DNA of 55,662 bases. It comes from a virus. The notes beneath the pieces were generated by a model. It made no database searches and was not told where the DNA came from. It saw only the letters and a list, made by a program, of their open reading frames with translations. Positions 18,462 to 50,022 of the stretch are shown here, one piece after another. The stretch's first letter is position 1. Each line of letters begins with the position of its first letter. The stretch is from positions 1-55,662 of the IMG/VR virus record IMGVR_UViG_3300024261_000038; one strand, 5' to 3'. The translations under genes and the position numbers were made by a program.

Positions 18462-19157
18462 ATGCCAAAAATAATTAAGCCAGTAGGAAAAAGTAGTTTT
18501 ACATCAGCAACAATTTCTGTTGATGGTGATGGTAGAATTTTTTCTGCAGCTTCAGGATCAGCAGGTGCACAAGGTTATCAACCAAAAGAATTAAAATATG
18601 GTTCTCACAGTTACAGCTATTCAGCAATAGACCAAAACGCTACAAAAGCAGCAGGGTTAATTTCTGGTGGTGGTGGCGGAGGAGGAAACTCAAACCAAAA
18701 CGCAACAGGAAGACCAGGCGGTCACGGATTTTTTGGTGTATGGGCAGTAGACGTTGCTCCAGGAGTTTTAAATGGAACAGCGATTCAAATTGGTGCTGGC
18801 GGTACTGGTGCAACTAATCCAAGTCAAGGGCAAGCCGGTGGAACAACTAATTTTGGTAATATAATAAATGCAGGAGGTGGTACTGGTGGAGCTAGTCCTC
18901 ACAGTCCCGATCAACCAAGACCTGCTGCTGGAAGTACAAATACACCTAATGTATTTAATTATAGCACATCAGATTTTGCTAACACAACTAACATTGCACC
19001 TCCCTCACCTGGATCAGGTGGTACAGGACCGGGTACAAGTAATGGACCTCAAGCACCTTTAACTCGATTTACCTTAGGCGGTAGAGGTGGTGGTGGAGCT
19101 TCAAGTAATGGAAATGGCGGGGATGGATACATATACATTTTCGAACAGGTAACATAG
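18462..19157 (+). CDS. Glycine-rich tail/adhesin-type protein
   Basis: 231 aa with long Gly runs (ISGGGGGGGN, GGRGGGGASSNGNGG) and the ending GDGYIYIFEQVT. Glycine-rich stretches with a terminal beta-strand occur in phage receptor-binding adhesins (for example the Gp38 type) and in fibre tips. Position at the end of the fibre block supports a role in host attachment. No catalytic residues are evident. Confidence 0.6.
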   Translation: MPKIIKPVGKSSFTSATISVDGDGRIFSAASGSAGAQGYQPKELKYGSHSYSYSAIDQNATKAAGLISGGGGGGGNSNQNATGRPGGHGFFGVWAVDVAPGVLNGTAIQIGAGGTGATNPSQGQAGGTTNFGNIINAGGGTGGASPHSPDQPRPAAGSTNTPNVFNYSTSDFANTTNIAPPSPGSGGTGPGTSNGPQAPLTRFTLGGRGGGGASSNGNGGDGYIYIFEQVT

Positions 19158-19165
19158 GATAAAAG

Positions 19166-19624
19166 ATGCCAAATATATATTTTAGAGGAAATACAAATGA
19201 AATTTGGAGAATATCAAAAGATGATTCTGATGGAGAATCAATCGTAGCCAACTCTGGAGAGACGTTAGTTAAAAAAAATTTTTCACAATCTGATTTTGAT
19301 TTAATAGTTGCACAAACAAAAAGATTTGATGAAAGTCTAACTCAAGACAATATTGTTCTTGTAGATACAGAACAACCAACTAGATCTATACTTGAATTTA
19401 AACAAGATTTTGAAAACGAAATAAATGCTTTTGATAAATTTTTAGAAGGTACTAAAACCTCAACTATGAGAGATAGACTTGCAGCTTATAGAGCACGTTT
19501 AAGTGCAGCTTTGAGCCATGCAATGTTATCAGAAAATGAAACTTTTTCAGTACATTGTTCAAAATACACCTCTGATTTAAATCCTGGAGAAGAAGTATTT
19601 CATATGTTGCAAGTTTGTGATTAA
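19166..19624 (+). CDS. Tail-region protein, 152 aa
   Basis: Function unknown. Begins MPNIYFRGNTNEIWRIS, then becomes helical and charged. Its size and position after the adhesin-type gene would fit a tail-fibre assembly chaperone, but no motif proves it. A promoter for the accessory cassette overlaps its 3' end. Confidence 0.6.
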   Translation: MPNIYFRGNTNEIWRISKDDSDGESIVANSGETLVKKNFSQSDFDLIVAQTKRFDESLTQDNIVLVDTEQPTRSILEFKQDFENEINAFDKFLEGTKTSTMRDRLAAYRARLSAALSHAMLSENETFSVHCSKYTSDLNPGEEVFHMLQVCD

Positions 19625-19643: not shown

Positions 19644-20390
19644 ATGAAAGATATTCAATTTGTTGCTCCCGACATTTATCTAAAAAATTTTGAAGACAGA
19701 CCTCAACTCTCTAATAATTTTTTACCTGATTGGTATAAAAAACTTAAACATCACCCTAACAGAACCACTATAAAAGGATGTAAACCTTTTGCAGATTCAA
19801 TGACCACTGGGTATATGCTAACTACACCTCAAGAGTTTTATCTTGAAATAACTGAAGTAGAGAAAGGTAAATTAGAAATATATGTAAAATCTTCTTTTGA
19901 AGATTTTTCTAATGACCCAAGGTTTAGTGAAATAAATATAAACGCTAATATGGGACGTCAGATACACCCTCCTCGTCAATTTGAAGGTTCACCACAATTA
20001 AAAAAAAATTTTAATTTCCCTGGTATGAAATTTCATAACCCTTGGAAAATATATACTCCTTCTGGCTATTCTTGTTTATTTACTCCACCTATAAATAGAG
20101 TTGATGATAGGTTTGAAATCATTAGTGGTATAGTAGATACGGATGCTTATAAAGAATATATTAACTTTCCTTTTATTTTAAAAAAAGACTATCTTTTAAA
20201 ACAAGTTAAAAACGGAAAGTATTTTTCTATTATTAAAAAAGGAACTCCATATTGTCAAATTATTCCTTTTAAAAGAGAGAGTTGGAAAATGAAAATAGAA
20301 GAAGGAGAACCTACTGTTTCTAGTAGTCTTCTTACAGAAAAATTTAATTATTATAGTAATAAAATCTGGAACCGAAAAAGTTATAAATAA
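19644..20390 (+). CDS. Conserved marine-virus protein next to oxygenases and halogenase
   Basis: 248 aa, with several tight signature blocks: KFHNPWKIYTPSGYSCLF, NRVDDRFEIISGIVDTD and YCQIIPFKRESWKM. I associate this pattern with an uncharacterised protein family (possibly DUF6065) often found beside 2OG oxygenases and halogenases in marine viruses. The many conserved aromatic, His and Asp residues suggest an enzyme or a small-molecule-binding fold, but the chemistry is unknown. It converges on the six-gene - strand cassette with no gap (stops at 20388-20390 and 20391-20393). Confidence 0.65.
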   Translation: MKDIQFVAPDIYLKNFEDRPQLSNNFLPDWYKKLKHHPNRTTIKGCKPFADSMTTGYMLTTPQEFYLEITEVEKGKLEIYVKSSFEDFSNDPRFSEININANMGRQIHPPRQFEGSPQLKKNFNFPGMKFHNPWKIYTPSGYSCLFTPPINRVDDRFEIISGIVDTDAYKEYINFPFILKKDYLLKQVKNGKYFSIIKKGTPYCQIIPFKRESWKMKIEEGEPTVSSSLLTEKFNYYSNKIWNRKSYK

Positions 20391-20615
20391 TTATTCTTTA
20401 GTTAAATCAATTTTAGTGTTTTCGTCACTTAATCTGTTCTGATATTTTTCAGGAAGGTTCGTATTAAATGTAATAATTGTGTGTACAAAAGAGTCAATAA
20501 AACTTTTTGATGTATCAAAATTTAAAAAAACTTCTCCTTTAAAAAATATTTTAAGTCTTTCTTTCCAAGAAAAATCAAATTTAATATTACCTGGTTTTAG
20601 TTGTCTAATTTGCAT
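20391..20615 (-). CDS. Small protein at the end of the accessory operon, 74 aa
   Basis: MQIRQLKPGNIKFDFSWKER... The stretch FSWKERLKIFFKG resembles small phage proteins with the core WxRLxIFFKG. It lies 13 nt downstream of the 2OG oxygenase stop on the same strand and abuts the + gene's stop. Amphipathic and basic at the N-terminus; function unknown. Confidence 0.6.
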   Translation of the reverse strand: MQIRQLKPGNIKFDFSWKERLKIFFKGEVFLNFDTSKSFIDSFVHTIITFNTNLPEKYQNRLSDENTKIDLTKE

Positions 20616-20628
20616 ACCTTGTTATATA

Positions 20629-21231
20629 CTATATCTTTAAATTGTTCAATCTATCGTACATTCCAACTTCTCCTCTAAACCATGTGTTAAAAGATAAAGT
20701 AGTTCTTACTTTTTTACTTGGATTGGCAAGTACATCATGAGATAATTGAGAAGGAAAAATAATTAAATTACCTTGCTCTGCTTTTACAGTTAGTATTTCT
20801 TCTAAATAACAAGTTTCTTTTTCTTTTTCAAAAACAACTTGTTGCATGTCTTTGTTTGGACTATGAAAACGAGTTTCAGTATGCTCTCCGGTTATATAAT
20901 ATACTCCGCTATAAATACTATTAGGGTGTCGATGTAAGTGATGTCCTTCTCCAGGTTTACTCATTGTAAGCCACGATTGAGTTATATATAGTTCTATTCT
21001 TTTATCGTAACCTATTATATTGTGATGAAAGTTTTTTACATTATCTAATATAAACTTTTTTAGATTTTTTAAATTTTCTTGCTCTAGCCACATTTTATTT
21101 TTACTTGTATGATTTAATAAATTTTCAAGCGCTGCTACATTTTTAAAAGATTCTTTTTCATTATCATCCATTACGTATTTATCATCTGCTAAATATACAG
21201 GTTGTGAAAATAATTCTAATACTTTTGCCAT
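20629..21231 (-). CDS. 2OG-Fe(II) oxygenase-like protein (2OG-FeII_Oxy_5 type)
   Basis: 200 aa. HHLHRHPNSIYSGVYY (metal-site His 100 and His 102), FPSQLSHDV (His 165) and RTTLSFN (Arg 176, 2-oxoglutarate binding) follow the double-stranded beta-helix pattern of the 2OG-FeII_Oxy_5 group common in marine phages. It would couple 2-oxoglutarate decarboxylation to hydroxylation of an unknown substrate. The ATG at 21231, 2 nt after the upstream stop, is preferred over an in-frame TTG at 21246 that lies inside the upstream gene. Confidence 0.8.
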   Translation of the reverse strand: MAKVLELFSQPVYLADDKYVMDDNEKESFKNVAALENLLNHTSKNKMWLEQENLKNLKKFILDNVKNFHHNIIGYDKRIELYITQSWLTMSKPGEGHHLHRHPNSIYSGVYYITGEHTETRFHSPNKDMQQVVFEKEKETCYLEEILTVKAEQGNLIIFPSQLSHDVLANPSKKVRTTLSFNTWFRGEVGMYDRLNNLKI

Positions 21232-21233
21232 AA

Positions 21234-21785
21234 TTAAAAACCCCAAGTTACAAATGAATAACGTGTTCCTTCTCTAATATTATTTACTCTATGAGGATAT
21301 AAAAAATTACTTGGAAATAATAAAATATCTCCTTGTTTTAATTCTACTTTATATTCTTTGTTAAACATAAACTCTCCCCCTTTATAGTCATCATTTAACA
21401 ATCCTACAACAGAAATAATTGGAATACCTTTATGCACTCCATCAAATATAGAATGAATATGATCAATATGACTATTCATATTAGTGCCTGTTACATACTT
21501 ATTAAATCTTATTTCACTAAAAGATTTAATCCAAGAATAGTCCCCAACGTGTTTTTTTCTATATTCCCTGCAACATTCAATAACTAATTTTTGTAAAGGA
21601 ACTCCTTCTTCTTTTGCGGACATAACTTCTAACTCTTCTTTATCTCTAGAACCTACTTCTTTTCCCGTTGTATCTGACCACGTGTGGGCTGACCATTCTC
21701 TTTGATTTAGTGAGCATATTAAATTATTACAAAAATCTTTATCCAAAACATTTTGGACTTCTATGTAATCATAAATTTGTTTCAT
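21234..21785 (-). CDS. 2OG-Fe(II) oxygenase, prolyl-4-hydroxylase type
   Basis: 183 aa. SHIDHIHS gives the HxD pair (His 106, Asp 108), YPHRVNNI the distal His 165, and GTRYSF Arg 175 for 2-oxoglutarate. Spacing fits the prolyl-4-hydroxylase-like Fe(II)/2OG superfamily. Substrate unknown; a peptide or protein side chain is possible for this class. It overlaps the halogenase gene by 4 nt (ATGA), so the two are probably translated together. Confidence 0.82.
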   Translation of the reverse strand: MKQIYDYIEVQNVLDKDFCNNLICSLNQREWSAHTWSDTTGKEVGSRDKEELEVMSAKEEGVPLQKLVIECCREYRKKHVGDYSWIKSFSEIRFNKYVTGTNMNSHIDHIHSIFDGVHKGIPIISVVGLLNDDYKGGEFMFNKEYKVELKQGDILLFPSNFLYPHRVNNIREGTRYSFVTWGF

Positions 21786-23194
21786 ATTGATTCCTTAATA
21801 ACTTGGTCATGATCTATATATTCTTTTGAAAAACTAAACAACTCTTCGTGTTCCATTTCTGCAAAACTTTTTAAAACAGGAGAGGCGTTTAATTCTTTTT
21901 TAATATTCTCTGTATTAAACAAACCTAAAGCATGAAATAAAATTACCCAATTAGGAGCTTTAAACATATGCCAGCCCATATTAAAATCAGTATTTCTAAT
22001 CATTCTTATTTTTGCAATTTCCATTAGTTCTTGTACACCCTCCATTATGGGCAAGTTTTGCACATCTTTCCAAAATTCAGTATCTTGTCTTTTTGTAAGA
22101 TAATGTGCGTGTACAAATTCCATTAGATTTTCATATAAATATTCAGTGTGTTTATTAAAAGATTTTTTGTCTAAAGAAGGCAAAAATTGATTTAAACAAA
22201 AAGCTTGCTGTATAGTGCTTCCAATTGAAGTCGCTTCTAAAGGTTCAACAAATCCAGCGGACACTCCTATTGCTACAACATTTTTATACCAAAATGTTTT
22301 TACTCTACCTGCTTGAAATTTAAATGATTTTGCTATTTTTATCTTGTCACCATATAATTTTTGTATTTCTTCTAGTGCTTTATCCTCTGTTATATGACTT
22401 GAACTATAAACATATCCATTACCTAATCTATCTTGAGTAGGTGTTTTCCAATGCCAACCACTATTCATGGTTCTTGACAGAGTCCAAGCATTTCGTTTTT
22501 CTTCTTTTGGAGAAGGAAAAGCAAATGCACTATCTACAGGTAAATATTTTTGATAAGAAATATAAGGGACCTTTAAATGTTTTTTTAATAAGAATCCAAA
22601 AAACCCACTACAATCAATAAATAAATCAGCGTCATAATTTTGTTTCTGTCCTACTAAATGTTTTATCTCACCTAAATCGTTTTTAATAGCATCTTTAATA
22701 TCATCTTCAATAATGTTTATATTTTTCTCTATACATACTTTATTTAAAAAAGTATTTAATTTAAAAGTATCAAAATGAAATTGAAGAACTAAATTACTAT
22801 AATCTTGTTTTATGAATTTATTATCATAAAAATTTTGATAACACATATATTTTGCATTAATGTTTCTGGCTATTAAATTTGCATACAGATATAGGTAATC
22901 TCCAGCTTCTTTACTAAAATCTCCATTAACAGAATGAAGGAAAGGTTCTTTGGTCCAACCTTCAAACATAACACCTGATTTTAATGTAGCTCCAGTTTCT
23001 TTAAGTAAGTCTTTAAATTTAATCCCTACATAATTTGTAAACTCAGACCAATGTTCTGTGGACCCTTCTCCAACTCCTATGATACCTATTTTATCAGATT
23101 TAATAATATTTATATTATAATTAGGAAATTTTGTTTTTAAAATTAAAGCCGTTACTAACCCTGAAGTTCCAGCTCCTAAGATATTTATCTTCAT
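21782..23194 (-). CDS. Flavin-dependent tryptophan-halogenase-like enzyme
   Basis: 470 aa, within the normal range for the family. N-terminal Rossmann FAD site GAGTSG (residues 8-12 region), then GVGEGSTEHW. Lys 72 in ATLKSGVMF corresponds to the catalytic Lys of PrnA-type halogenases. The family's WxWxIP motif appears as GWHWKTP (246-252), with Thr in place of Ile, followed by GNGYVYS. VAIGVSAGFVEPLEATS (about 307-323) places Glu 320 at the PrnA Glu346 position. The enzyme would oxidise halide with FADH2 and O2 and place Cl, Br or I on an aromatic substrate; cyanophage VirX1 is a known viral relative. No flavin reductase is visible, so the host would have to supply FADH2. Flanked by 2OG oxygenases with 4-nt overlaps on both sides. 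Confidence 0.88.
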   Translation of the reverse strand: MKINILGAGTSGLVTALILKTKFPNYNINIIKSDKIGIIGVGEGSTEHWSEFTNYVGIKFKDLLKETGATLKSGVMFEGWTKEPFLHSVNGDFSKEAGDYLYLYANLIARNINAKYMCYQNFYDNKFIKQDYSNLVLQFHFDTFKLNTFLNKVCIEKNINIIEDDIKDAIKNDLGEIKHLVGQKQNYDADLFIDCSGFFGFLLKKHLKVPYISYQKYLPVDSAFAFPSPKEEKRNAWTLSRTMNSGWHWKTPTQDRLGNGYVYSSSHITEDKALEEIQKLYGDKIKIAKSFKFQAGRVKTFWYKNVVAIGVSAGFVEPLEATSIGSTIQQAFCLNQFLPSLDKKSFNKHTEYLYENLMEFVHAHYLTKRQDTEFWKDVQNLPIMEGVQELMEIAKIRMIRNTDFNMGWHMFKAPNWVILFHALGLFNTENIKKELNASPVLKSFAEMEHEELFSFSKEYIDHDQVIKESI

Positions 23195-23724
23195 ACTTTT
23201 TTACTAAAGTCTAGATTATCCCATTTTTTTATTTGATCCATATTAAAAGCTAAACTGTATCTTTTATCTAAATCAGAACGGTTTACAAAATGTAGGAGGA
23301 TAGGGTCAAATAAAATATATCTACCTTTGATTGGATTAATTACTTTTTTTATTTCTTCAAAACTTGTTCCTGGGCCACCGGTTGTAAGATATAATAGTCC
23401 ACAAAAAGCAGAAGTTTGTATATGAGCATGATTATGTGTTGAATCTCCTTTATTCATTAACACTCCCCATGAATTTTCAATAATAAAAGAATGCTTATAA
23501 ATCTTTTTAATATCTGATTGAATCGATTTTAAAAAAAGGTGGAAGTCAGGATCTCCATTAAACCTTTTAAAAGAAGTCATATGTGGGACATTTGTTTTAA
23601 AACTTAATGTTGGATCAATATTGTATTTTATTTTTTCTATTAAACGATCACATAATTCCATATCTGTTATGTCACCAGAAACAATCTTGACTGTTTTTTC
23701 TATTTTAAATTCTAAATCTTGCAT
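23191..23724 (-). CDS. 2OG-Fe(II) oxygenase-like protein (2OG-FeII_Oxy_5 type)
   Basis: 177 aa. STHNHAHIQTSAFCGLLYL provides clustered His 97, 99 and 101; LLHFVNRSD gives His 145 and KRYSLAFN Arg 155. This follows the same core as the gene at 20629, but the Asp of a classical HxD is missing, as in that group. Its start shares one base with the upstream stop and its end overlaps the halogenase start by 4 nt. Substrate unknown. Confidence 0.7.
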   Translation of the reverse strand: MQDLEFKIEKTVKIVSGDITDMELCDRLIEKIKYNIDPTLSFKTNVPHMTSFKRFNGDPDFHLFLKSIQSDIKKIYKHSFIIENSWGVLMNKGDSTHNHAHIQTSAFCGLLYLTTGGPGTSFEEIKKVINPIKGRYILFDPILLHFVNRSDLDKRYSLAFNMDQIKKWDNLDFSKKV

Positions 23725-24227
23725 TATACGTAGTTAATATTAATATTTAAACGCAAGTGTTTATCGGTACACGTTGTGCTTTGATGTAGTTTGCTAGTAT
23801 CAAAAAATACGGCCCTATTTTCAATACTTTCAATCTTAGTTCCGTCTTCTAGAATAGTATATCCATTGTTATTATTAATATGAAATATTAATCCTTTATG
23901 AGGAAAAGGATAATCTTGATGTTTTGCATGAGTATATTGAGTTTCAGTAGATGGATAACAATTTACTTTTGCTCTAATTATAGATGTGTGATCGATTCTA
24001 GTCATAATAGGTGTCAATAGCTTTTCAAAAAAATTACTTCGTATAGTATTTTCAAAATATAAAAAATGAACAAAATGATAGAGATCATCCTTTTTTAAAG
24101 ATCCATTGCCTTTTTTATAAAAATAAGACAGCTCAAAGGTTATGATTTTTTGTACTTCTTTAAAAATATCCAGAGGAAGGAAATTTTCGACTATTTTATA
24201 TTTATTGACCGCAGTAGCTTTCTTCAT
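23724..24227 (-). CDS. 2OG-Fe(II) oxygenase-like protein, first gene of accessory operon
   Basis: 167 aa. HAKHQDYPFPH gives an HxD pair (His 103, Asp 105); KLHQSTT gives His 148 and LRLNIN Arg 159. The same layout is seen in the protein at 35188. The ATG at 24227 is preferred because a longer frame up to 24368 runs antisense into the + gene. No good Shine-Dalgarno. It is the promoter-proximal gene of the six-gene cassette, and a + strand promoter for the tail gene lies within its first codons. Confidence 0.72.
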   Translation of the reverse strand: MKKATAVNKYKIVENFLPLDIFKEVQKIITFELSYFYKKGNGSLKKDDLYHFVHFLYFENTIRSNFFEKLLTPIMTRIDHTSIIRAKVNCYPSTETQYTHAKHQDYPFPHKGLIFHINNNNGYTILEDGTKIESIENRAVFFDTSKLHQSTTCTDKHLRLNININYV

Positions 24228-24261: not shown

Positions 24262-26439
24262 ATGCTACAAAAAATTGGATTCCAACCAGGCATCAATAAA
24301 CAAATATCAGAAACTACTGCTGAAGGACAATGGGTAGATTGTGATAATGTACGTTTTAGATATGGCACACCTGAAAAAATAGGTGGATGGAAACAGTTAG
24401 GAACAGATGATCTAACTGGAGCAGCCAGAGGACTACATCATTTTGTAAACAGCTTAGGTAGAAAGTACGCAATCATAGGTACAAACAGTATTTTATATGC
24501 ATATTCAGGTGGAGTATTCTACGACATACACCCCATAGATACTACAACTACTCTTAGTAATGCTTTCAGCACAACTAATGGATCTCCCACTGTTACTATA
24601 ACTTTTCCTTCTGCACATAATATGACAGATAATGATATTATTCTTTTAGATAATTTTACAACAATAACTAATTCTAATTTTAGTGCATCAGATTTTGACG
24701 ATAAAAAATTTATGGTAACATCGGTGCCTTCTACAACAACTATAACAATTACAATGCCATCAAATGAAACAGGTAGTGGTGCAACCACATCTGGAGGTAT
24801 TAGAATTCAACATTATTATACAGTAGGTCCATCTGTTCAAGGAAAAGGTTTTGGTTTTGGTTTAGGTTCTTGGAGTGGTCCTGCTGCAGGAGCAGTAACA
24901 ACAACTTTAGATGGAGCAATCAACGCTGCAGTAACTAGTATTACACTATCAGATGCTTCACAGTTTCCAGACAGTGGAACTAATTTTATTATAATAGGTT
25001 CAGAAGAAATTTCATACACAGGAGTTAGTAGTAATACTTTAACAGGGTGTACTAGAGGTGTAGCAGGAACAACAGCAGCATCTCACAGTGATGGAGATAC
25101 AGTTACAAACTCAACTGACTATGTTGCATGGGGAGAAGCAGCGTCAGGAGATTTAATTGTTGAACCGGGTATGTGGTCATTAGATAACTTTGGAGACAAA
25201 GCTATTTGTTTAATTCACAACAACGCTTGTTTTGAATGGGACTCTTCTTCATCAAATGCAACAGCAACTAGAGCTACAATTATATCAGGTGCACCAACAT
25301 CTTCACGTCATATGTTAGTATCTACTCCTGATAGACACTTAGTATTTTTTGGAACAGAAACAACTATTGGTGATCCATTAACACAAGATGAAATGTTTAT
25401 TAGATTCTCGGACCAAGAGGATATTAATACTTATACACCTACAGCAACCAATACAGCTGGTACACAGAGACTGGCCGACGGATCACGGATCATGGGAGCT
25501 ATTAGAGGTAGAGATGCAATTTATGTTTGGACTGATACTGCATTGTTCACTCAACGTTTTGTTGGTCAACCATTTACTTTTGCCTTTGCACAAGTTGGGA
25601 CCAACTGTGGACTTGTAGGACAGAATGCTTGTGTTGAAGTTGATGGTGCTGCGTACTGGATGTCAGAAAATGGTTTCTTTAGATTTGCTGGTAGACTAGA
25701 GTCTTTACCTTGTTTAGTAGAGGACTATGTTTATGATGATATAAATATAGAGTCAGGTAATCAAATGATATCTGCTGGATTAAATAATTTGTTTGGTGAA
25801 GTAATATGGTTTTACCCAACGTCTTCCTCAGCTGTTGTAAATAGAATGGTTTCATATAATTATTTTGATTCTTCTCCTCAAAGACCTGTATGGGCAAATG
25901 GATCTTTATCTAGAACTATGTGGAAAGACTCAGCAGTTTTTGGTAGTCCACATGCAACAGAATACGATGCAGGCACTGATAGTTCTTTTGATGTAGTTGG
26001 AAACACAGAAGGTATGACAACTTATTATGAACACGAAATTGGAACTGATCAAAATAAAAACGGAGTAATCACTGCAGTTACTGCAAACATTTCGTCAGGA
26101 GATTTTGATATAACACAAGCAAGATCTGCTCAAGGAACTCAAACAGGTATTGCAACTTTTAAAGGAGATGGTGAATATTTAATGAAAATAAGAAGATTTG
26201 TACCTGACTTCATATCACAAACAGGAACTACTAGAGTTACATTACAATTAAAAAACTATCCTAATGATTCACAAACTGGTTCACCACTTGGACCTTTTGA
26301 TATAACAACCTCTACTACAAAAGTAGACACACGTGCAAGAGCAAGATCAATTGCTATGAAAATAGAAAACACAGCAGCTAGTCAAAGTTGGAAACTAGGT
26401 ACTTTTAGATTAGATACACAACCGGATGGTAGAAGATAA
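24262..26439 (+). CDS. Tail nozzle / stabilisation protein (P22 gp10-like)
   Basis: 725 aa from the ATG at 24262 (MLQKIGFQPGINKQ...). An earlier in-frame ATG at 24142 would run through the opposite gene and the promoter, so it is rejected. GQWVDCDNVRFRYGTPEKIGGWKQL and, late, WKLGTFRLDTQPDGRR are conserved ends of the gp10-like family of short-tailed phages, which forms the tail hub below the gp4-like ring. Numerous beta repeats lie in the middle. It is separated from the other connector genes by the inserted accessory cassette. Confidence 0.75.
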   Translation: MLQKIGFQPGINKQISETTAEGQWVDCDNVRFRYGTPEKIGGWKQLGTDDLTGAARGLHHFVNSLGRKYAIIGTNSILYAYSGGVFYDIHPIDTTTTLSNAFSTTNGSPTVTITFPSAHNMTDNDIILLDNFTTITNSNFSASDFDDKKFMVTSVPSTTTITITMPSNETGSGATTSGGIRIQHYYTVGPSVQGKGFGFGLGSWSGPAAGAVTTTLDGAINAAVTSITLSDASQFPDSGTNFIIIGSEEISYTGVSSNTLTGCTRGVAGTTAASHSDGDTVTNSTDYVAWGEAASGDLIVEPGMWSLDNFGDKAICLIHNNACFEWDSSSSNATATRATIISGAPTSSRHMLVSTPDRHLVFFGTETTIGDPLTQDEMFIRFSDQEDINTYTPTATNTAGTQRLADGSRIMGAIRGRDAIYVWTDTALFTQRFVGQPFTFAFAQVGTNCGLVGQNACVEVDGAAYWMSENGFFRFAGRLESLPCLVEDYVYDDINIESGNQMISAGLNNLFGEVIWFYPTSSSAVVNRMVSYNYFDSSPQRPVWANGSLSRTMWKDSAVFGSPHATEYDAGTDSSFDVVGNTEGMTTYYEHEIGTDQNKNGVITAVTANISSGDFDITQARSAQGTQTGIATFKGDGEYLMKIRRFVPDFISQTGTTRVTLQLKNYPNDSQTGSPLGPFDITTSTTKVDTRARARSIAMKIENTAASQSWKLGTFRLDTQPDGRR

Positions 26440-35012: not shown

Positions 35013-35191
35013 TGACTAAAAAATCTGCATTACAAAAAATTGAAGACCATGAAAAACTGTGTCGTATTATGCAGAAACAAACTTTTGATCAGATCAAAGA
35101 AGTTAAGCAAAGATTAGAACGTATGGAAAAGATGATAATAGGTGGAGCGTTTGGAATTGTAGTTGCTCTTTTATTGAACATGCTTAAATGA
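35012..35191 (+). CDS. XhlA-like membrane protein, possible holin component (59 aa)
   Basis: An N-terminal charged coiled-coil (residues 1-40) and one C-terminal transmembrane helix (about 42-58) reproduce the architecture of XhlA-type proteins, which act with holins. It overlaps both neighbours (TAATG at the start, ATGA at the end) and lies two genes before the M15 endolysin. It may assist lysis; a regulatory membrane protein is an alternative. Confidence 0.55.
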   Translation: MTKKSALQKIEDHEKLCRIMQKQTFDQIKEVKQRLERMEKMIIGGAFGIVVALLLNMLK

Positions 35192-35700
35192 AAATTTTAA
35201 ACGATATTTTACCACAAGAAACTAATTTAAAAATATTAGATTTAGTTACAAAAGAAAATTGGTTTGTATCTAAAGATGATATAAATTTGTCACAATTAGA
35301 ATCATTAATGTCTTATAACACTGGATTACAAAATGTTACTTATCAAGAAGGTTCTGATTTTGAAAATCAATTTCAAGAATTAAATGAATATGCTCAATTA
35401 ATATTAGATGAAGTAAGTAAAAAATTAAATATTAAAACAGAGCCTCATAGATTTTTTTGGAATTTATACTTTACTCCAAGTCACTCTGAGAATCACAGAG
35501 ATTGGCCTGTTGCAGATAAATGTCAAACAATAATTTATAATCTACATACAACGGATGGTGGAACAGAGATAGATGGTAAAACTTTTAAAGACAAAATGGG
35601 TCAAGCAAAAATTTTTGAAAGCAATTTATTACACAAAGGTATTTCTTGCAAAGAAGACAAAGTAAGATTAAACTTAAACATTATTTTTAAAATAAAATGA
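35188..35700 (+). CDS. 2OG-Fe(II) oxygenase-like protein near the lysis genes
   Basis: 170 aa. ENHRDWP gives His 103 and Asp 105, LLHKGIS gives His 149 and VRLNLN Arg 160: the HxD...H...R pattern of the Fe(II)/2OG fold with spacing like the gene at 23724. Overlaps the XhlA-like gene by 4 nt and the endolysin gene by 4 nt, so the three are co-translated. Why an oxygenase is sandwiched between lysis genes is unclear. Confidence 0.7.
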   Translation: MKILNDILPQETNLKILDLVTKENWFVSKDDINLSQLESLMSYNTGLQNVTYQEGSDFENQFQELNEYAQLILDEVSKKLNIKTEPHRFFWNLYFTPSHSENHRDWPVADKCQTIIYNLHTTDGGTEIDGKTFKDKMGQAKIFESNLLHKGISCKEDKVRLNLNIIFKIK

Positions 35701-48005: not shown

Positions 48006-48127
48006 AATTTAAAAGCTCAAGGGCGTCCAAATCTGCCAATGGCATTTCCCTGTACGTTAGCGATGACCGAAAGGTAGCAACCTGGAGTTTGGCCGGCTGT
48101 GAGTACGTCGACGGAAAGCAGCTGGTT

Positions 48128-49332: not shown

Positions 49333-50022
49333 ATGAAGAAGAAAAGAGAATGTATGAAGAAGAATGAAGAAGAACAAATAAAATTATCTATATTTAATTG
49401 GGGACCTTGTGTTACACATTTTAAATGTGATGATGCATTTATAGATTTACTTATAAAAGAAGGTAAAAAAGGTAAACAAGACTACAGAGATAAACTTGCA
49501 GGACAAATTAAAGAAGAGATAGGTTATTCTGAAGAGTCAAAAAAGTTAATATTACCAAGACTTTCCCAGTTTATAGGGGTCTATGATCAAGCTTTTGAAA
49601 GGTATCAAAGCAAACCTTATGAAACAAAACCTGAGTATGTGTTATCAGCACTCTGGATAAATTATCAAAAACAACACGAGTATAATCCACCACACGATCA
49701 TGATGGTAGATTGTCGTTTGTTATCTATCTTGATATGCCAAAAAAATTAGAAGAAGAACAAAAAAATTATGTAGGTAAATCTTGTGGACCTGGAGGAATA
49801 CAATTTTTATATGGAGAAGGACCAAGAGATGCAGTAACTACATTATCTTTTTCTCCTAAAAAAGGAGATATGTTTATTTTTCCTTCTTGGTTGAAACATT
49901 ACGTTGCGCCTTACAAATCTGATTGTACACGAATCAGTGTGAGTGGTAACTTTCATGACCAAGTCCCTATAAATAATGTTATAAATTTCGCACCTAAATA
50001 TTTAAAAAATGCAAAAAAATGA
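49333..50022 (+). CDS. 2OG-Fe(II) oxygenase-like protein (2OG-FeII_Oxy_5 type)
   Basis: 229 aa. PPHDHDGRLSFVIYLDMP (His 121/123), then GPGGIQFLYGEGPR, GDMFIFPSWLKHYV (His 189) and CTRISVSGNF (Arg 200) reproduce the core of this family, which is frequent in marine T4-like and other phages. Substrate unknown. It sits in the early region, unlike the four in the inverted cassette. No clear ribosome-binding site; an alternative start is the second ATG at 49354. Confidence 0.82.
   Translation: MKKKRECMKKNEEEQIKLSIFNWGPCVTHFKCDDAFIDLLIKEGKKGKQDYRDKLAGQIKEEIGYSEESKKLILPRLSQFIGVYDQAFERYQSKPYETKPEYVLSALWINYQKQHEYNPPHDHDGRLSFVIYLDMPKKLEEEQKNYVGKSCGPGGIQFLYGEGPRDAVTTLSFSPKKGDMFIFPSWLKHYVAPYKSDCTRISVSGNFHDQVPINNVINFAPKYLKNAKK

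Follow-up and report, generated by a model that had tools for sequence, protein, structure and literature searches.

Introduction

Genes of 2-oxoglutarate (2OG)-Fe(II) oxygenases in marine phages have been read as genes of host metabolism: those of cyanophages were proposed to modulate 2OG (Sullivan 2010, PMC3037559), and in HTVC023P-type pelagiphages 2OG-Fe(II) proteins colocated with ferrochelatases were described as partner auxiliary metabolic genes (AMGs; Wittmers 2022, PMC9599517). The element considered here is a block of genes largely of the same enzyme type, located at positions 19644–24227 of a stretch of viral DNA of 55,662 nucleotides (IMG/VR record IMGVR_UViG_3300024261_000038, positions 1 to 55,662; the whole stretch is called the window below). 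It holds four 2OG-type oxygenase genes (OG_A to OG_D), a flavin-dependent halogenase gene, a gene for a 74-residue protein and a convergent gene for a DUF6065-like protein, and is flanked by a Gly-rich fibre gene and a 152-residue gene on one side and by a gp10-like gene on the other.

The partner-AMG phages are the closest described case. They share with the case described here, in all likelihood, the phage group, and also several non-orthologous neighbouring 2OG genes and a 'ferrochelatase' partner; the 2OG genes of HTVC027P lie exactly at the site of the block, and those of HTVC023P in the same region. The published account differs in its metabolic reading, and its main text mentions neither 'halogenase' nor 'tail fiber' (PMC9599517). 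Viral flavin halogenases (VirX1, the cyanophage prnA genes) are likewise viral members of PF04820 with the FAD and Lys/Glu motifs; the window enzyme differs from VirX1 by its place in a fibre-adjacent oxygenase operon and by an identity of 28.9% to the best-matching place in the Syn10 record (39.6–44.1% to the five nearest viruses among phage records). VirX1 (PDB 6qgm), which we take to be the halogenase of cyanophage Syn10, reportedly iodinates diverse substrates; we know of no native substrate of a marine phage halogenase. Bacterial PF04820 halogenases also stand beside 2OG or cupin hydroxylases, often with an unknown substrate; these belong to cells and have no known link to phage fibres. 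Mycobacteriophages encode glycosyltransferases that modify virion proteins of the phage itself; they transfer sugars, whereas oxidation, halogenation and sulfation are proposed here; to our knowledge no co-variation with fibre type accompanies virion glycosylation. Among the titles and abstract beginnings searched, nothing was found on 2OG/halogenase islands tied to phage fibres; the collection searched contained no paper on DUF6065 and none on a viral halogenase adjoining 2OG-Fe genes. The link to the fibre, the way in which island content changes with fibre type, and the DUF6065/halogenase subtype, all described below, come from this analysis.

Results and Discussion

Proposed function of the block

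The block is read as one version of a fibre-coupled tailoring island of highly variable content that would act on the fibre or tail, a reading to which we give about an even chance. In HTVC023P-type pelagiphages and their relatives, the island occupies the interval between the tail-fibre genes and the gp10-like gene, and fibre genes and island would move between different phage backbones as a single module for host recognition. The enzymes, if active, would act on fibre and tail proteins as these are made: the oxygenases would place hydroxyl groups on side chains of the neighbouring fibre or tip (or of another tail protein) in the infected cell, and an optional halogenase, sulfotransferase, carbamoyltransferase and methyltransferase-like protein would further decorate those or aromatic side chains. 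An adhesin surface chemically diversified in this manner could benefit the phage in receptor binding or in escape from host resistance. With the fibre as substrate, a change of fibre would bring a change of chemistry.

Occurrence of the island upstream of gp10

Loci were collected through gp10 only (query alignment from six island-bearing loci; best 80 contigs, 72 clusters at 95%). At least one 2OG gene was found ≤5 kb upstream of gp10 in 43 of the 53 loci with at least 2.5 kb of upstream sequence (mean 3.4, maximum 9; no 2OG gene in L197, L204, L206, L208, L212, L229, L235, L238, L244 and L253), and 2OG-type genes made up 181 of the 325 coding sequences (CDS) of the upstream zone, a count in which the share of class OG_E is not independent, since OG_E was built from the gp10-found loci. 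Downstream of gp10, 2OG genes were seen in 0/30 loci with at least 2.5 kb on that side; in the paired comparison the upstream count was higher in 13 loci and lower in none (n = 16). The 2OG profiles were grown from the window proteins over three rounds and overlap, so that the letters A–E denote bins and not orthologue groups. The site is fixed and its content hypervariable: 30 gene orders were counted among the 41 loci with 4 kb of upstream sequence, 'none' (5 loci) being taken as one order.

An outside check with Pfam, covering 110 of 308 upstream CDS, gave PF13759 (23) and PF13640 (23; overlap between the two possible), Trp_halogenase (3), sulfotransferase (3), carbamoyltransferase (1) and CTP_transf_like (1); the PHROG tallies on 110 of the 308 CDS agree. 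Individual fibre-adjacent examples upstream of gp10 are a carbamoyltransferase gene at L191:5327-6904 (8.6e-50) and a sulfotransferase gene at L239:4753-5544 (1.1e-10). The direction of gp10 is shared by 173 of the 181 2OG genes, and in 121 of 128 cases two adjoining 2OG genes on one strand are separated by ≤10 nt, which is as expected of genes made with the virion. An inverted arrangement like that of the window occurs in L181 and L241 (2OG genes) and in L252 (halogenase). At exactly this site HTVC027P, which like HTVC023P was cultured on Ca. Pelagibacter HTCC1062, carries an inverted block of three 2OG genes (gp72-74), each scoring over the Pfam cut-off, and its gp10 homologue forms the border there as in the window. 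In HTVC023P, 2OG genes are annotated in this region too, and the two that were tested match Pfam; a similar 2OG run is present in the uncultured 023Pt_psg01.

High turnover is also what would be seen at a recombination hotspot, that is, at a tolerated site by the fibre genes where assorted accessory genes collect that have no functional relation to the fibre, and the low G+C content of the window block (0.27–0.28, among the lowest in the window) fits the same explanation. A neutral site would gather diverse cargo, yet the upstream zone is filled to the extent given above with one enzyme type; moreover, reading frames and metal-ligand patterns are conserved, and substitutions are heaviest at third codon positions in every comparison made, a rough sign of purifying selection that is not a dN/dS value. 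A hotspot of this kind is regarded as improbable.

Co-variation of island and fibre

All pairs of loci were compared for similarity of island, fibre zone (genes ≤4 kb upstream) and gp10; of 68 loci, 56 were kept after repeats of the same gp10 stretch had been dropped, and OG_D of the window, whose open frame runs into gp10, was not included in the window's zone for that reason. With gp10 held constant, the partial r of island and fibre zone was 0.324 (0/2000 shuffles); with the fibre held constant, that of island and gp10 was 0.027 (514/2000). The first relation was also obtained for the 34 gp10-found loci (0.404, 0/2000), after removal of the window's group (0.337, 0/2000) and, more weakly, for the other 22 loci (0.305, 17/2000). 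Island content thus tracks the fibre genes, not gp10; as the island touches both flanks, distance alone predicts no such asymmetry. Presence of an island depends on fibre type as well: a 2OG island was found at 0/6 loci with a DUF7483-type fibre versus 43/47 others (p 9e-6), at 0/3 loci of another small fibre group that is not DUF7483, and at 11/11 and 6/6 loci of two Gly-rich fibre groups, 'Gly-rich fibre' denoting any fibre matched by a profile that was built up from the one in the window. The initial annotation had placed a modification 'perhaps on a tail protein', and the linkage of fibre and island, as seen in sequence comparisons, favours this part of it.

Co-variation with the fibre would equally be accounted for by an island that modifies the host surface or a secreted small molecule, for example the receptor, and so keeps further phages from infecting the cell or released ones from adsorbing again to debris; since receptors would differ from one fibre type to the next, such an island would follow the fibre too. 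Exclusion of superinfecting phages is a known theme, and sulfotransferases and carbamoyltransferases, both of which are represented among the island members, have small molecules or glycans as substrates in known pathways. A glycosyltransferase gene lies downstream of gp10 in HTVC027P and HTVC023P, and the single CTP_transf_like match among the sampled upstream CDS points the same way. The common direction of the 2OG genes and gp10 suits virion-time expression instead, and no transporter was present among the best 25 of the 32 Pfam families matched by the 110 sampled CDS. Action on the host surface or on a small molecule is the main rival to the tailoring of the fibre; it is considered unlikely, if by no means far-fetched.

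The cassette of the window and of its relatives

The coordinates are collected in Table 1. Open reading frame (ORF) coordinates bear out the packed arrangement described in the initial annotation, namely six minus-strand genes with overlaps of 1–4 nt (in transcription order OG_D/OG_C 1 nt, OG_C/halogenase 4 nt and halogenase/OG_B 4 nt) that abut a convergent plus-strand gene, the 3' ends of the DUF6065 gene and the 74-residue gene being adjacent (20390/20391). The gene identities given there (2OG-type oxygenases, FAD halogenase and small protein) likewise stand, those of the enzymes on Pfam and PHROG profiles and motifs. OG_A begins with TTG, an in-frame ATG being present at 21231; the start of OG_D is a chosen ATG at 24227 (ORF open to 24368; relatives start there or a few codons downstream); the likely start of the gp10-like gene is the ATG at 24262 (ORF open from 24142; the gp10 queries began one codon upstream). 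A tblastn search of named phage records with the Gly-rich tip gave no match, and the 152-residue protein had none in the Pfam and PHROG searches.

Table 1: Features of the island and its borders in the window (positions of the 55,662-nucleotide stretch).
Feature	Coordinates	Strand	Evidence
Gly-rich protein of the fibre (tip); candidate substrate or partner for the island	18462..19157	+	Gly_rich_2 0.0085, under Pfam cut-off; phrog_863 tail fibre assembly 2.2e-07
152-residue protein between fibre and DUF6065	19166..19624	+	46–48% identity within subtype
DUF6065-like protein (phrog_7084), convergent with operon; predicted dUTPase-like fold	19644..20390	+	
74-residue conserved protein, last gene of the minus-strand operon	20391..20615	-	
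OG_A, 2OG-Fe(II) oxygenase family (PF13759)	20629..21246	-	2OG_Oxy_5 4.1e-22; HxH...H...R in 5/5 aligned
OG_B, 2OG-Fe(II) oxygenase family (PF13640)	21234..21785	-	2OG_Oxy_3 6.8e-12; HxD...H...R in 5/5 aligned
Flavin-dependent halogenase (PF04820)	21782..23194	-	Trp_halogenase 1.1e-96
OG_C, divergent 2OG-Fe(II) oxygenase (PF13759)	23191..23724	-	2OG_Oxy_5 3.3e-06; phrog_81 2.2e-14
OG_D, prolyl-hydroxylase-like 2OG oxygenase	23724..24227	-	phrog_274 6.6e-35; HxD...H...R in 5/5 aligned
gp10-like protein (tail hub or nozzle), bounding the island on the far side	24262..26439	+	phrog_3287 1.4e-101

The cassette occurs at the same place and in the same order in five other viruses: L003/L004 (two contigs of apparently one virus), L015 and L016 (both cut by contig ends), L017 and L018. 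Their cassette genes are 55–80% identical to those of the window at the amino acid level, and the adjoining gp10 is 33–83% identical. All five carry, between OG_D and OG_C, a gene of 163 residues that is not in the window (L004:8864-9355); it is 82–85% identical among the relatives and methyltransferase-like by eye, with no Pfam match over the cut-off. One extra 2OG gene stands between OG_B and OG_A in L017 and L018. In the alignment of the tips, the window, L003, L017 and L018 share one subtype, with N-terminal parts of unequal length, and other cassette types accompany other tips. Chance or an annotation artefact was rejected as the origin of the block in view of its preservation in five other viruses. 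That the gene set co-occurs and stays adjacent, as the initial annotation supposed for a genuine system, is true for the window's subtype, in which single or randomly assorted genes were not seen; in the wider group the picture is divided, member genes being shuffled, yet the island keeps to one site and co-varies with the fibre.

The window virus is related to HTVC023P-type pelagiphages, near which it is provisionally placed by the identity of its capsid (best match in phage records HTVC027P, 83%) and PolA (52.0% to HTVC027P and 52.7% to 023Pt_psg01, the two top matches). The phages that carry the island are relatives of the most abundant viruses known from the ocean bacterium Pelagibacter. 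Elsewhere in the window, two oxygenase-like genes lie outside the island, at 49333-50022 + (Pfam 2OG match 2.6e-16) and at 35188-35700 + (HxD...H...R-like by eye, no Pfam match). At 48013-48127 + this pelagiphage-like virus has a match to the Rfam family Flavobacterium-1 small RNA (RF02976; 95.6 bits, gathering threshold 58.9).

Oxygenases, small protein and gene labels

The HxD...H...R pattern (metal triad and 2OG-binding Arg), as read by eye, is kept in OG_B and OG_D; in OG_A and OG_C the pattern is HxH...H...R, also by eye, so that the acidic metal ligand seems to be replaced in these two. Each of the four proteins, OG_C included, keeps its pattern in all 5 sequences aligned. OG_C scores 27.8 bits in Pfam against a cut-off of 27. 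OG_D gave no Pfam match, and its assignment rests on phrog_274 and the ligand pattern; its reading as a DNA repair endonuclease, after the PHROGs label 'DNA endonuclease V', was set aside in view of that 2OG metal-ligand pattern. The 74-residue protein is conserved mostly in its N-terminal half and is predicted to be folded (predicted local distance difference test, pLDDT, 85), and is therefore not read as a peptide substrate: a role as precursor peptide for the operon is not favoured, although this is unproven. Its model had no Foldseek match.

The phage 'ferrochelatase' phrog_2954 is represented by L258:4461-5081 (HTVC023P gp67) and by a cluster of 48 members upstream of gp10. No Pfam match was obtained for the two members tested; hhalign against 2OG profiles gave E 2e-4 to 1.3e-3 (probability 18–46%), and against three unrelated profiles a probability of ≤0.8%. 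With moderate confidence, and from this profile resemblance, phrog_2954 is thus probably another 2OG-type protein that has been misannotated. The point bears on the view that the 2OG enzymes are AMGs which, partnered by a ferrochelatase, alter the host's status with respect to 2-oxoglutarate, nitrogen or iron. That view has the published AMG readings on its side (PMC3037559, PMC9599517); it does not predict a fixed fibre-side site, hypervariable content or dependence on fibre type, and its ferrochelatase would probably be one more oxygenase-type protein. Only a small probability is assigned to it.

Halogenase

The halogenase matches PF04820 with 324.9 bits (cut-off 21) over residues 2-427 of 470, and also phrog_2928. 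Its FAD, Lys and Glu motifs are intact: the GxGxxG motif for flavin adenine dinucleotide (FAD) is present (G7, G9, G12), and K72 and E320, which we equate with the catalytic K79 and E346 of PrnA, are found in 163/163 and 162/163 aligned homologues, respectively. WxWxIP is a motif of flavin-dependent halogenases; at its position the window has WHWKTP and the relative L004 has WNWKIP, residue 251 being T in 18/163 and I in 128/163 homologues. The nearest solved structures by sequence are Trp 5-halogenases, and the viral VirX1 matches with 1.6e-58; profile alignments to PrnA and RebH stop at query residues 403-414, short of the C-terminal substrate region. For the halogenation of tryptophan, of a Trp-containing peptide or of an antagonistic compound, all suggested in the initial annotation, no specific support was obtained. 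A flavin reductase (PF01613) had no match in the virus record, which may be a fragment; the reduced flavin, FADH2, would come from a host reductase.

A 2OG gene lies ≤3 kb from 115 of 139 halogenase genes in the halogenase-found viral loci (among the matches listed). The halogenase is an occasional island member, present ≤5 kb from gp10 in 4 of the 53 gp10-found loci; wider maps of 6.5 kb place it in L185, L187, L213, L214, L226 and L252. As an optional gene it is not the heart of the system. Six islands (L039, L043, L047, L050, L051 and L060) hold 4–5 halogenase genes each together with two inverted OG_A-type genes, DUF6065 being wedged among the halogenases with short overlaps. Fibre residues specific to halogenase-bearing islands were sought; the independent halogenase cases were too few to name one.

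DUF6065-like protein

The gene convergent with the operon had been assigned to an uncharacterised marine-virus family. Its position stands, and the assignment needs widening: its homologues are also haloarchaeal-viral (49 phage records matched, all of haloarchaeal viruses), and a dUTPase-like fold is predicted. The window protein scores 19.5 bits against PF19541, under the cut-off of 26.6; 37 of 55 aligned homologues match this family at E ≤0.1 (best 2e-39), and a pattern scan confirmed no cellular relatives. The predicted model (pLDDT 91.7) is dUTPase-like over about half of its 248 residues. The best Foldseek match was 1f7o (3.7e-04; template modelling score 0.29 by query, 0.56 by target); VIA-align gave Z 9.8 over 127 residues at 5.3 Å to 3lqw and Z 9.0 over 116 residues at 2.8 Å to 2py4, its best 50 rows being all dUTPases (within Foldseek's best 1000 chains). 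Weak dUTPase profile matches fall on the GxVDxDY and GTPxxQxI stretches (best E 0.067). The dUTPase motif AGxD contains an Asp, which looks replaced in the window protein.

DUF6065 genes were found ≤5 kb from gp10 in 4 of the 53 gp10-found loci. In the set of 56, a Gly-rich fibre accompanied DUF6065 in 22/22 loci and occurred in 6/34 loci without it, many of the 22 having been found through DUF6065 itself and some being close relatives; in the gp10-found loci alone the figures were 3/3 and 5/31 (p 0.009). An OG_B-class gene was present in 22/22 DUF6065 islands listed. In the halogenase-found viral loci, 14 of 21 DUF6065 genes stood ≤60 nt from a same-strand halogenase gene (matches listed), many of them in related contigs. 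In HF1 and HSTV-2 the DUF6065 gene is convergent with baseplate and tail genes; in the three viruses examined for this, L013 (HSTV-2), L014 (HF1) and L161, it stands beside ribonucleotide reductase (RNR) or thymidylate synthase genes. As dUTPases are usually trimers, a trimeric dUTPase-like DUF6065 protein would, by analogy, suit a trimeric fibre.

Its model, which aligns with dUTPases at Z up to 9.8, and the RNR and thymidylate synthase neighbours in HF1, HSTV-2 and L161 would also be in keeping with an island whose targets are nucleotides or DNA (hypermodified bases) and in which DUF6065, in the manner of a dUTPase, handles nucleotides. DUF6065 is rare in the gp10-found loci and goes with the fibre type, which speaks against this, and we hold it to be very improbable. 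Related pelagiphages do carry thymidine hypermodification genes, and these are reported to lie near polA, not at the island (PMC9599517).

Evidence weighing against a fibre-tailoring island

Several observations count against the proposal that the island tailors the fibre or tail. The co-variation fits a joint exchange of two neighbouring modules equally well. The gp10 sample leans to gp10s close to that of the window (island-bearing query, best 80 loci). In the gp10-found set the partial r of island and gp10, given the fibre, is -0.301, a value from a set in which gp10 similarity is range-restricted, and the shuffles model phylogeny through gp10 only. Two fibre groups that are not Gly-rich also have islands (5/5 and 3/3). 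The inverted island of the window needs its own promoter. The predicted nucleotide-enzyme fold of DUF6065 and its RNR and thymidylate synthase neighbours hint at small-molecule work, and in the DUF6065-found loci 0/95 DUF6065 genes stand ≤60 nt from a halogenase. The halogenase shows no tie to the Gly-rich fibre, which was present at 8/13 halogenase loci versus 20/43 others (p 0.53); for this reason and for its low frequency in the gp10-found loci it was rejected as core of the system. The halogenase gene of HTVC008M is located in a stretch of neck and terminase genes, and that of P-SSM2 close to nrd genes; in neither phage is a fibre gene annotated in the vicinity.

Of the tailoring island itself a more elaborate form may be entertained, tentatively and as the more doubtful of the two: exchangeable 2OG sets and optional enzymes would install non-canonical chemistry on the tip, DUF6065 would serve as adaptor or chaperone of the tip, and host range would evolve by enzyme shuffling too.

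Conclusion

For pelagiphage 2OG genes, so far read as genes of host metabolism, the fibre linkage offers an alternative hypothesis and suggests that phages may chemically tailor their own fibres. It may give marine phage halogenases a physical candidate substrate, and the profile comparisons and ligand patterns suggest that these genes have been mislabelled as 'ferrochelatase' and 'DNA endonuclease V'. The finding is relevant to the question of how host recognition is varied by marine phages that have few genes; if the proposal is true, host range could evolve by the shuffling of enzymes as well as by sequence.

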